Below, in pieces: positions 59,838 to 64,000 of a stretch of DNA of 64,000 nt; position 1 is the stretch's first letter, and each line of letters begins with the position of its first letter. Below the pieces are notes generated by a model. The model ran no database searches, had not been told where the DNA came from, and saw only the letters and a list, made by a program, of their open reading frames with translations. Source of the DNA: Oceanospirillaceae bacterium (GTDB taxonomy: Bacteria; Pseudomonadota; Gammaproteobacteria; Pseudomonadales; Balneatricaceae); contig JAPYOS010000002.1 in assembly GCA_029938085.1 (NCBI GenBank), forward strand, positions 186,001 through 250,000, in the 5' to 3' direction. The translations under genes and the position numbers were made by a program.

Positions 59838-61271
59838 CTATTGATTCAACCTAAACGCCACATACAGTGGCCTACCTTGGCGCACAATACGTAAGGAAAT
59901 AGAGCGGTGTAGCGGCAACTGCGCTACTAACCCAACAATTTGCTCTACGCTTTCTATGCGCTGGTTAGCGATGCTAGTGATCACATCGCCGGCCTGTAAG
60001 CCCAGCTCTTGAGCTACGCCCTGGTCGGCTTCGATGATTTCCACACCATGGCCTATGCGCCACGCTTTGGCTTTATCGGCCGGCAAACTTGCCACCCGCA
60101 GGCCAATCCGTGCAAGGTATTGGCCTTGTTCTGGCGCGCCAAGGGCGGCCGAAACTTGATCGGGCAAGGCCCCGATAACCACCTTGATATATATATTTTC
60201 ACCACCCCTAACCAAACCAATAAGCGCAATTTCTTCTGGCACTAGCGCACCGATAAAGTGGGCAACTTGTGCCGATAAAATAATTTCGTGGCCATTGACC
60301 GAGGTGATCACATCACCTGCCTGCAAACCGGCATCCAGAGCAGGGCTACCCTCTATAACTTGTGCGATTAAAGCACCTGCGGCTTTATCTAAACCAAAGG
60401 ATTCGGCCAAATCCTGACTCACCTCTTGAATCTGCACACCCAGCCAACCCCTGGACACCTCGCCATGGTCGCGCAACTGAGCCACCACAGAGGTTGCAGT
60501 GTTACTTGGAATAGCAAAACTAAGGCCCATAAAACCGCCCGAACGGGTGTAGATTTGCGAATTAATACCCACCACTTCACCGTCGAGATTAAACAGCGGC
60601 CCGCCAGAATTGCCTGGATTAATGGCCACATCGGTTTGAATAAACGGCACGTAGGTTTCAGTACGTAAGCTACGGCCTTTAGCGCTGACGATACCCGCGG
60701 TTACCGAATGGTCAAAACCAAAGGGTGAACCAATGGCCAATACCCACTCGCCCACTTTGAGCTGATCGGAGTCGGCAAGGGTTAAATAGGGCAACTGGTC
60801 GGCGTCTATTTTTAATAAGGCCAGATCTGAACGAGGGTCACTACCGACTAATTCGGCTTCCATCTCTCGGCGGTCACTCAGGGCAACGATGATTTTATCT
60901 GCGCCTTCAATAACGTGATAATTGGTTAACAGGTAGCCATCGTCGCTGATTATAAAACCAGAACCAAGTGACTGAAGCTTGGGATTTGGCCCTTGCTGAC
61001 GGGGCTTTTGCTGCGGGAACTGGCGCTCAAAAAAATGTTTAAAAATATCGGGGAGTTGATCTTGATTAGGCAAACTGAACGACTTGCCTGCCGTTTTTTC
61101 ATCAACAGTACGGCTGGTACTGATATTCACCACCGCCGGTGCGGCCTGCTCAACAAGCTGAGTAAAATCGGGTAGCGCAGCTGCAACAGTGAGCGGAGAC
61201 ATCGCTGACAACAATAACGTGGCCCACACGATATGGGCTAGCGGTCGTTTGAAAAAAGGCATTATACGCAT
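59838..61271 (-). CDS. Do-family periplasmic serine protease (DegP/MucD-like)
   Basis: A 477-residue protease: signal peptide (about 1-32), trypsin-like domain with catalytic His in TNYHVIEGA, Asp in SDLALLKID and Ser in GNSGGPLFN, then two PDZ domains (about 290-375 and 390-475). The start at 61271 has an AGGAG site; upstream in-frame codons are not supported. Its place after rpoE, anti-sigma and rseC makes it the MucD counterpart, a chaperone-protease of envelope stress that limits sigmaE activity in Pseudomonas. Confidence 0.94.
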   Translation of the reverse strand: MRIMPFFKRPLAHIVWATLLLSAMSPLTVAAALPDFTQLVEQAAPAVVNISTSRTVDEKTAGKSFSLPNQDQLPDIFKHFFERQFPQQKPRQQGPNPKLQSLGSGFIISDDGYLLTNYHVIEGADKIIVALSDRREMEAELVGSDPRSDLALLKIDADQLPYLTLADSDQLKVGEWVLAIGSPFGFDHSVTAGIVSAKGRSLRTETYVPFIQTDVAINPGNSGGPLFNLDGEVVGINSQIYTRSGGFMGLSFAIPSNTATSVVAQLRDHGEVSRGWLGVQIQEVSQDLAESFGLDKAAGALIAQVIEGSPALDAGLQAGDVITSVNGHEIILSAQVAHFIGALVPEEIALIGLVRGGENIYIKVVIGALPDQVSAALGAPEQGQYLARIGLRVASLPADKAKAWRIGHGVEIIEADQGVAQELGLQAGDVITSIANQRIESVEQIVGLVAQLPLHRSISLRIVRQGRPLYVAFRLNQ

Positions 61272-61372
61272 AGCGTATTCCTCTAGGAGATGAATGGCGT
61301 GGTTTAATATACGATGAATTGAGGACACTAGAGCCAATAAATCACGCCCTTTACACAATATTGCACAGCGAC

Positions 61373-61879
61373 CTACTCGCTAAAACGCAACGCCTGGACA
61401 CCTTCAGCCTGCTGCTGGCGCAATATGACGGGCTGCCATTGATTGCTTGCTGCTGTATTGTTAGAAGCGCTTAAACTGCGACTATACAAACGCACTAAGG
61501 AGAGCCCCAACCCCAACCCCAACAGCGCCGTTAGTGCGATAACTGGTTCTGAAGCCGATAAGGCCTGAGCAATGATGGCCGTTATTAACATCACCACCAG
61601 AGGCATAGCAAAGGTCATTAAACTGGCCTTGATAAAGGCCTTTTGAGGTACGCCCAACACCACTTCGTCACCCACTTGGAGTGACATATGGGCAGGCAAG
61701 GGTAATTGAATGCGAGAACGTTTGCAGTCTGTGGCTTGATTCATGAGCCGTTGGCCACAGCCGCTTTTCATACTGCAGGAGTTGCATGTACTCAAGCGAA
61801 CAGTGTCTAACCAGACAGAGGTTGGATCAATGGCGTGGACTTGTGCCACCTGCTCGATCATAGATTCGGCGTCGTGCAT
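61373..61879 (-). CDS. rseC: RseC/MucC family protein
   Basis: A 168-residue membrane protein: an N-terminal domain with four conserved Cys (CNSCSMKSGCGQ plus a later Cys in TDCKRSR), two membrane segments (about 88-108 and 115-135) and a cytoplasmic tail. This is the RseC/MucC pattern; the Cys cluster suggests an iron-sulfur or redox site. RseC members act in sigmaE control and in SoxR reduction. It lies between the anti-sigma gene and the protease gene. Confidence 0.92.
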   Translation of the reverse strand: MHDAESMIEQVAQVHAIDPTSVWLDTVRLSTCNSCSMKSGCGQRLMNQATDCKRSRIQLPLPAHMSLQVGDEVVLGVPQKAFIKASLMTFAMPLVVMLITAIIAQALSASEPVIALTALLGLGLGLSLVRLYSRSLSASNNTAASNQWQPVILRQQQAEGVQALRFSE

Positions 61880-61900: not shown

Positions 61901-62752
61901 TTATTGGGCTTTTAAGGATACCACAGAGTTGGCCACTTGCTCAGCTTGCGCCAAACTGAGTTGCCCTACCAGGGTCACAAATACTGGTTCGCCATTATTG
62001 CTCAACGACTGGCCTAAAACTAAGTTAGAACCAGCATAAGCATGACCTTCTGCAATATCACGGCCATTGAGCGCTTCAACATAAAGTGTAAAGCTGGCGT
62101 CACCGTCGCTATAGGTCAGCACTTCCCGCGGGGTTTGATTAGCCTCATCTAAGCTACGCTGAGTGAGTACAAAACCGGCAGGTGAATACTGGGCTAGCCA
62201 TTGGCCGTCGGTGGCATTAATAGCTTGAGTAGGCGCAGGCAGACGAATGATTTGATTGGTGTTGGCAACCGACACAGTGGTGTTAGCCGCATTAGTGCTC
62301 GCCAATTCAATACCACGATTACTGTTTCTAGGCTCTAACAAAACCACGCCTTGCTGAGCTGGAATGATATTGGGTTGCGATGCTACACCTATACGCTGGG
62401 CGCCCATTACCATCACCACAGTTACACTAGCTGCCACGGCCAAACCCGCAACGGGCTGCCAAAACTGATTGAACTTGTGCGCCACAGTACTCGGTTTAGA
62501 CACCTGTATGGTGGCTTCAGACTCCAGCGCAGTGCGTACACTGTCGGCCAAACTCAGGGGCGAACTAGTGCTGGTGGCTTGCCGTTTTAACGCCGCACTA
62601 GCCAGCTGATAACGCGCCCATTGCTCGCGCACCTGACTGTCATCATGGCTCGCCTTTAACACCCGTTGCAATTCCAAGGGCTGTGCAGCATCATCCATAA
62701 GCGCCGATAATGATTCGCGTACTGAGTCTGCTGTGGTTTGTGTTGGTTGCAA
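61901..62752 (-). CDS. RseA-RseB fusion: anti-sigma domain plus RseB C-terminal domain
   Basis: A 283-residue membrane protein. Residues about 10-60 (ESLSALMDDAAQPLELQRVLKASHDD) match the sigmaE-binding domain of RseA/MucA. A membrane segment spans about 98-118. Residues about 185-280 match the small C-terminal domain of RseB: WLAQYSPAGFVL, YSDGDASFTLYVEAL, VTLVGQLSLAQAEQVANSV. The large LolA-like N-terminal domain of RseB is absent, and no separate rseB is found. It likely holds sigmaE at the membrane and carries its own periplasmic sensor or protease-access domain. Confidence 0.87.
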   Translation of the reverse strand: MQPTQTTADSVRESLSALMDDAAQPLELQRVLKASHDDSQVREQWARYQLASAALKRQATSTSSPLSLADSVRTALESEATIQVSKPSTVAHKFNQFWQPVAGLAVAASVTVVMVMGAQRIGVASQPNIIPAQQGVVLLEPRNSNRGIELASTNAANTTVSVANTNQIIRLPAPTQAINATDGQWLAQYSPAGFVLTQRSLDEANQTPREVLTYSDGDASFTLYVEALNGRDIAEGHAYAGSNLVLGQSLSNNGEPVFVTLVGQLSLAQAEQVANSVVSLKAQ

Positions 62753-62867: not shown

Positions 62868-63464
62868 CTAACCCATGAGTTTTGCCACTTCTTTGTCGAT
62901 GGCATCCCGCGCTCTAAATATTCGTGAGCGTACCGTGCCCACCGGACAGGCCATAACTTCGGCAATTTGTTCGTAGCTCATGCCTTCAAATTCCCTGAGC
63001 GTGAGCGCAGTCCTGAGGTCATCGGATAATTTTTCTAAGGTGGCAAAAACCTTGTCTTGTAATTGATCGCGGGCCATGAGGTTTTCTGGCGTTTCAACAT
63101 CGGCCATAATATCAGCACTACCATAATCGCCTTGCTCATTGGCCTCTACATCAACGTCTGGCGGCCTGCGCTTGCGTGCAACCAAATAATTTTTGGCGGT
63201 GTTAATGGCGATGCGATAGAGCCAGGTGTAAAACTGACTGTCGCCTCTAAAGTTGGCTAACGCACGATAGGCCTTGATAAAGGCTTCTTGGCTCACATCC
63301 ATGGCTTCGTGGTGGTCGTTAACATAACGCCCCACCAAACTAATTATTTTATGTTGATATTTAAGCACCAATAAATCGAAGGCGCGTTTATCCCCTGCTT
63401 GCACACGTTCGACCAGCTGTTGATCTGATTCTGCTGCCTTGGGTTGTAAAAGGGGGTTGGGCAC
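62868..63464 (-). CDS. rpoE: RNA polymerase sigma factor RpoE/AlgU
   Basis: A 198-residue ECF sigma factor: region 2 (about 25-95, DVSQEAFIKAYRALANFRGDSQFYTWLYRIAINTAKN) and region 4 (about 135-190, YEQIAEVMACPVGTVRSRIFRARDAID). It directs envelope-stress transcription and is held by the anti-sigma protein encoded next, after 115 bases. The nadB gene is divergent, as in E. coli and Pseudomonas. I could not find a convincing sigmaE-type autoregulatory promoter upstream. Confidence 0.97.
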   Translation of the reverse strand: MPNPLLQPKAAESDQQLVERVQAGDKRAFDLLVLKYQHKIISLVGRYVNDHHEAMDVSQEAFIKAYRALANFRGDSQFYTWLYRIAINTAKNYLVARKRRPPDVDVEANEQGDYGSADIMADVETPENLMARDQLQDKVFATLEKLSDDLRTALTLREFEGMSYEQIAEVMACPVGTVRSRIFRARDAIDKEVAKLMG

Positions 63465-63649: not shown

Positions 63650-64000
63650 ATGCAACAAGATTTTACATACGACGTTCTTATCATTGGTTCGGGTGCCGCT
63701 GGCCTCAGTTTAGGTTTGCGCTTAGCCACCAACCGGCGAGTTGCGATCCTTAGTAAAGACGAGCTTAATGCCGGCGCTTCCGCCAAGGCCCAAGGTGGCA
63801 TTGCCGCTGTACTGGATCACAAAGATCAGTTAGAAAACCATATTCAAGACACCCTCATCGCCGGCGCGAACCTAGGCAACCCAGAAGCCATTCAGTTTAC
63901 CGTAGAGCAAGCCAAGAAGAGCGTTGATTGGCTCATAGAGCAACGAGTACCCTTTACCCAAGATGCCAACGACGCCACGGGTTATCACTTAACCAAAGAA
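63650..64000 (+). CDS. nadB: L-aspartate oxidase, N-terminus (cut by window edge)
   Basis: The first 117 codons, open to the right edge, read MQQDFTYDVLIIGSGAAGLS with the FAD-binding GSGAAGL motif, then AGASAKAQGGIAAVLDHKDQ and the DTLIAGANLGN segment. NadB oxidises aspartate to iminoaspartate in NAD synthesis. A TATAAT at 63575-63580 could be its -10 element, but I see no good -35 at the right distance. Divergent from rpoE. Confidence 0.94.
   Translation, partial: MQQDFTYDVLIIGSGAAGLSLGLRLATNRRVAILSKDELNAGASAKAQGGIAAVLDHKDQLENHIQDTLIAGANLGNPEAIQFTVEQAKKSVDWLIEQRVPFTQDANDATGYHLTKE

Follow-up and report, generated by a model that had tools for sequence, protein, structure and literature searches.

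A single-frame fusion of RseA with the small domain of RseB in the rpoE operon of a marine gammaproteobacterial family

The gene that directly follows rpoE in the window analyzed here, a 64,000-nucleotide stretch of an Oceanospirillaceae genome (contig JAPYOS010000002.1), encodes one protein in which the sigma-binding domain of RseA and a membrane segment are joined to the C-terminal (small) domain of RseB. This fusion is confirmed as a single frame, it occurs in every genus of its family, and it lacks the large, lipid A-binding domain of RseB. We consider it somewhat probable that the fused domain acts as a covalent periplasmic cap that would be removed upon a cut by a protease of the AlgW/DegS type, without lipid input through a large domain. 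The domain content, the operon, the absence of the large domain, the proteases present, the selection on the small domain and the spread of the fusion all support this reading.

Table 1. Positions in the window of the fusion gene, its parts and its operon neighbors
Feature	Positions	Strand	Basis
RseA-RseB (small domain) fusion, 283 aa, TTG start	61901..62752	minus	frame and Pfam domains
RseA_N sigma-binding domain, residues 12-88	62489..62719	minus	PF03872, 43.6 bits
Membrane span, residues about 100-118	62399..62455	minus	hydropathy
Periplasmic linker, residues 119-181	62210..62398	minus	expected to hold the site-1 cut; position inferred
IIRLP stretch, residues 168-172	62237..62251	minus	alignment; assignment inferred
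MucB/RseB C-terminal (small) domain, residues 182-277	61922..62209	minus	PF17188, 39.8 bits, and PDB
rpoE/algU sigma factor, upstream	62868..63464	minus	TIGR02939, 295.1 bits, above cut-off
rseC/mucC, downstream	61373..61879	minus	PF04246, 100.4 bits
mucD-type Do-family protease, downstream	59838..61358	minus	TIGR02037, 499.1 bits

A preliminary description of this DNA had placed an RseA N-terminus, a membrane segment and an RseB-like C-terminus in one frame at 61901-62752. The positions proved correct; the gene lies on the minus strand, and the opposite strand there is full of stops. Profile searches of the two halves were both significant, RseA_N scoring well above its Pfam cut-off of 24 bits (E 4.5e-11) and MucB_RseB_C above its cut-off of 30.1 (E 5e-10). 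Among PDB entries, residues 8-81 matched 6in7 and 8z6g, which bear the names AlgU negative regulatory protein and RseA N-terminal domain protein, respectively. Residues 172-277 matched the MucB entries 6in8, 6in9 and 6jau, aligned to 180-287 or 184-291 of those chains, so that the part of MucB represented in the fusion is its C-terminal third. The NCBIfam equivalogs for RseA (NF008116, 26.7 bits) and RseB (NF006990, 31.8 bits) matched the respective halves, far below whole-protein cut-offs of 263 and 368. The best hydrophobic 19-mer is residues 100-118, and the presumed orientation would leave RseA_N in the cytoplasm and the small domain in the periplasm. Two traits of RseB/MucB are lacking: the small domain is not a separate secreted protein but shares its frame with RseA_N and the membrane span, and Pfam found no N-terminal LolA-like large domain in the 283 residues. 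Structure prediction placed strands before a C-terminal helix, the order of the MucB C-terminal domain, but this carries no weight at a pLDDT of 34.0 for the window protein alone and 38.5 for the C-terminal 113 residues with L041.

The operon reads rpoE - fusion - rseC - mucD, all on the minus strand, and the order in Pseudomonas aeruginosa is algU-mucA-mucB-mucC-mucD. The fusion thus has the position of RseA/MucA, directly after rpoE. A domain scan of the operon found no separate rseB and no large sensor domain at the locus, as had been described. One in-frame deletion between neighboring rseA and rseB genes probably produced this protein, and would have removed the RseA tail together with the signal peptide and large domain of RseB. 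On the far side of rpoE, a divergent plus-strand frame (63650-64000) reads by eye like nadB (L-aspartate oxidase) and runs off the window.

The first sample of relatives comprised 56 genomes, 35 from the family of the window genome (f1, presumably the Nitrincolaceae of GTDB) and 21 from other families in the order. Both domains were found in one frame in 33 of the 35 f1 genomes. G010, which is 72% complete, had neither domain, and G001 shows separate frames only owing to a run of N inside the gene. When the whole family was searched with profile A1, 113 of 116 genomes matched, 110 of them as one stretch; the match was split in G001, G704 and G720, and there was none in G010, G699 and G721. Because the single frame recurs in these numbers, single-contig genomes included, an assembly artefact is ruled out. 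The fusion is present in 16 of 16 f1 genera. At one f1 locus (L068) the small domain scored 27.8 bits, slightly under the Pfam cut-off, and one of the 110 genes (G714:C24:35289-36134) carries an in-frame TAA that may be a sequencing error. A second match of the contig scan, 25 residues in a Terriglobia MAG (L042), was a chance match within a methyltransferase frame.

The other families of the order were represented by 20 loci (L076-L095), G036 having given no match to fetch. Separate rseA and rseB frames were found at 19 of these. The remaining locus, L092 (G052, family f19, 1953-2745), has RseA_N in a 264-aa frame, and neither RseB domain was found in that genome at the thresholds used; RseA without RseB is therefore a third state, seen in a relative of the same order. 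Among the genomes listed in the order sample, six of f35 (2.3-3.5 Mb) and five of f15 had no RseA_N match. Loss of RseA in these two families is possible, but we are unsure of it because the genome search may miss weak matches: the f15 genome G048 was unmatched in one search and matched in another.

The preliminary description had also called for a genome-wide search for a free RseB large domain. The genome of the window (2.44 Mb, 95.6% complete) yielded no full-length RseB in searches with the large-domain profile PF03888 and the small-domain profile, and the latter matched only the fusion gene. A candidate second RseB at C2:66231 was rejected, since its PF03888 match (26.3 bits) covers profile positions 98-164 only and the protein belongs to PF17131, LolA_like, at 150.8 bits. 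The gene before this LolA-like protein (G000:C2:66231, locus L001 1024-1908) reads by eye like an RND/MMPL-type transporter, and the long frame on its other side looks like an outer-membrane protein. LolA-like proteins of this type give large-domain profile matches in several genomes of the window's genus (g1). Neither finding that had been named as fatal to the fusion, an insignificant small-domain match or a full rseB elsewhere in the genome, was made.

Nor did the family as a whole show the large domain. A full one was found in 0 of the 116 f1 genomes; at E 0.001 any match at all was seen in 14, all of them partial, the longest covering 113 of 178 positions and the best scoring 32.1 bits. 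In the first sample, five single-contig genomes (G015, G019, G025, G028 and G031) had no large-domain match at E 0.01. As a yardstick, the same search matched the large domain in 19 of the 21 genomes drawn from the order's other families, and for 18 the match spanned 165 or more of the 178 positions.

To follow the fusion further, an even sample of 370 genomes of the class was searched, of which 262 had a match. Long or odd RseA frames were picked among the matches listed in the order and class samples, and 19 such regions were fetched. Thirteen of these comprised three fusions (L104, L106 and L107) and ten loci with separate rseA and rseB; among the six others none was fused, three having a separate rseB and three no small domain in the fetched stretch. 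At L135 (G245), L139 (G547) and L140 (G636) an RseA frame was present and the small domain was not found in the 4-4.5 kb fetched. The small-domain profile used on these three was built from f1 only, and divergence rather than absence may account for the result. Pfam confirmed RseA_N and the small domain at L106 and L107, and at L104 the small domain reached 27.9 bits, slightly under the cut-off of 30.1. Family f131 was fused in five of six genomes, with one unmatched; in f144 one genome was fused (G525) and the other had separate genes (G420). The lineages sharing the fusion, among the matches listed, are thus all f1 genera and at least two other families.

A tree of RpoE, RseA_N and RseB_C (74 rows, 388 columns) needs three changes between the fused and separate states, of which at least two are forced by starred branches. 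Support for the f1 clade rose from 23 in the first tree to a starred 97 in the second. In AU tests, a single clade of all fusions was not rejected (p-AU 0.114); placing f131 and f144 together gave an even better tree (p-AU 0.684), and f1 with f131 was not rejected either (p-AU 0.216) when six rows, five with long branches and the f144 fusion, were left out. The fusion likely arose two or three times, with one clade left unrejected by the tree tests.

The fused small domain is under purifying selection. Its dN/dS by the Nei-Gojobori method was 0.04-0.13 in the eight pairs computed within g1; in four pairs from other genera it was 0.05 twice and 0.25 in the g3 pair, with one not computable. These ratios are rough, since synonymous estimates that exceed 1 approach saturation. 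When the window protein was compared with 12 congeners, mean identity was 0.69 in the small domain, 0.64 in RseA_N, 0.65 in the membrane part and 0.54 in the linker. If a deletion made the fusion, the small domain would be what it left behind, and might be a leftover with no function. We regard this as very improbable given the low dN/dS, unless the domain is only inert bulk, and given that the domain is kept in all 16 f1 genera and that fusions occur in two more families.

Whether the fused domain can still hold its old partner was judged from helix alphaI, the part of RseA that RseB grips. Its core was taken as Y-hydrophobic-x-x-H, the H of which is presumably H170 of MucA. Helix alphaI of MucA (R157-S177) makes the primary contact with the MucB C-terminal domain, and MucA mutants at W158, R162 and H170 lose MucB binding, as reported in PMC7400510. 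We looked for the core in the periplasmic part of each protein, using 39 fusions and 37 separate RseA proteins that remained after nine duplicates and one N-gapped locus had been dropped from the two sets together. It was present in 22 of the 39 fusions, against 0.34 expected from shuffled sequences, and in 25 of the 37 separate proteins, against 0.43. By group, it was found in 17 of 33 f1 fusions (13 of the 16 genera sampled), in 5 of 5 from f131 and in 0 of 1 from f144. Its end lies 8-9 residues ahead of the small domain in the f1 fusions and 29-34 ahead in those of f131.

The 16 f1 fusions without the core are all 13 of g1, the single one of g9 and, by the strict motif, both of g3; the g3 pair retains a relaxed version, GLRGQIDEH. 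The window protein has no alphaI core, and the alignment shows only IIRLP kept, which may be what is left of the RseA stretch leading up to alphaI or of its start. In the tree, the 14 rows of g1 and g9 together make up one starred group, and a single loss of the helix there is therefore probable. It should be noted that the MucA-MucB contact is not the reason for retention of the domain in g1, g9, g3 and f144, which lack the helix core. Strong purifying selection on the domain in spite of this loss in the 14 starred rows would be expected if the domain had become a sensor or docking site of its own, with cleavage controlled by a different ligand or protein bound in its free groove. We rate this as unlikely, because the operon points to no partner or ligand and because the known role of the small domain, as described in PMC7400510, is binding of RseA/MucA.

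The preliminary description had also proposed built-in shielding, which in its strict form would have the small domain lie over the site-1 cut and substitute for RseB entirely. The covalent link and the retention of alphaI beside the domain in most sampled f1 genera are in its favor. Against it, RseB in the RseA-RseB complex buries the cleavage segment RseA142-151 in a hydrophobic pocket, where RseB93-104, a strand of the large domain, protects it (PMC7400510), and that domain is found in none of the 116 genomes. As the RseB-gripping helix is also absent from the window's genus, built-in shielding is only partly supported, and we think it distinctly improbable that the small domain replaces RseB in this strict sense. 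The companion claim of a simpler sigmaE switch fared better, as it fits the absence of the lipid A-binding domain throughout the family.

A covalent cap would work with proteases that the genome encodes. These include RseP (468 aa; TIGR00054, 341.8 bits against a cut-off of 147.55) and a 393-aa Do/DegS-like protease with a single PDZ domain, whose two best models were the Do family (299.4 bits, cut-off 416.2) and DegS (282.0, cut-off 422.95), with both scores below threshold. The cytoplasmic part of the fusion would hold sigmaE, and the small domain would form a permanent 1:1 cap in place of a dissociable RseB. In most sampled f1 genera it could fold back on alphaI, so that the old partner would be held in cis. 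With alphaI contact reduced in the window's genus, the cap there may act mainly through bulk and anchoring, or the domain may have a new partner. The PDZ tandem of RseP is reported to be a size filter for intact RseA (PMC7728848); the cap would add to the size by which the uncut protein is barred from this filter, and it may restrict access to the linker. According to the same source the filter already shuts out intact RseA that has no RseB domain, so the cap need not serve exclusion from RseP. An AlgW/DegS-type protease, switched on by the ends of misfolded outer-membrane proteins, would cut the linker, the cap would leave, and RseP would then free sigmaE. Lipid A binds the N-terminal (large) domain of MucB (PMC7400510). 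With this site and the cut-protecting pocket both missing, one would expect no lipid gating through RseB, with control left to the AlgW/DegS signal.

In the textbook two-signal switch the second input, which senses lipid, comes through RseB, and the envelope-stress switch of this marine lineage probably runs on one input fewer. A broader picture, which we put forward tentatively and with more doubt than belief, is that the sigmaE response of a whole family runs on one lipid A-blind RseA-RseB chimera that arose two or three times, and that in g1 the domain, its helix lost, is now a new periplasmic regulator. In a lineage that lacks the lipid input but has kept the RseA-gripping domain in cis, nature has separated the two functions. 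Such a lineage offers a way to learn what the small domain of RseB contributes when there is no lipid pocket, and whether the ends of outer-membrane proteins are a sufficient signal by themselves. Separate genes, fusion with helix and fusion without helix form a graded series of natural variants.

In the open-licence literature searched we found no description of an RseA/RseB small-domain fusion; so far as that literature shows, this form of the RseA/RseB switch is new. The name 'MucB/RseB C-terminal domain-containing protein' has also been given to a gene listed apart from the RseA gene (PMC13108547), and a fusion cannot be recognized by this name alone.

Compared with MucA/MucB of P. aeruginosa, the fusion has a like operon order, homologous sigma-binding and MucB C-terminal domains and, in most sampled f1 genera, helix alphaI. 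However, MucA and MucB are two proteins, with a reported Kd of 1.5 uM, and MucB has the lipid A-binding N-terminal domain that the fusion lacks (PMC7400510). RseA of Escherichia coli shares with the fusion RseA_N, a membrane span (by hydropathy in the fusion) and the presence of DegS/RseP-type proteases, but burial of RseA142-151 in RseB, as reported in PMC7400510, is not expected of a small domain alone. The E. coli RseB is, moreover, separate and complete. In FecR-type anti-sigma regulators, as in the fusion, a cytoplasmic sigma-binding part and a fused periplasmic regulatory part make up one protein, although their periplasmic domain and signal are unrelated to those of the fusion. The FecR type is reported to be cleaved by RseP (PMC8144685).
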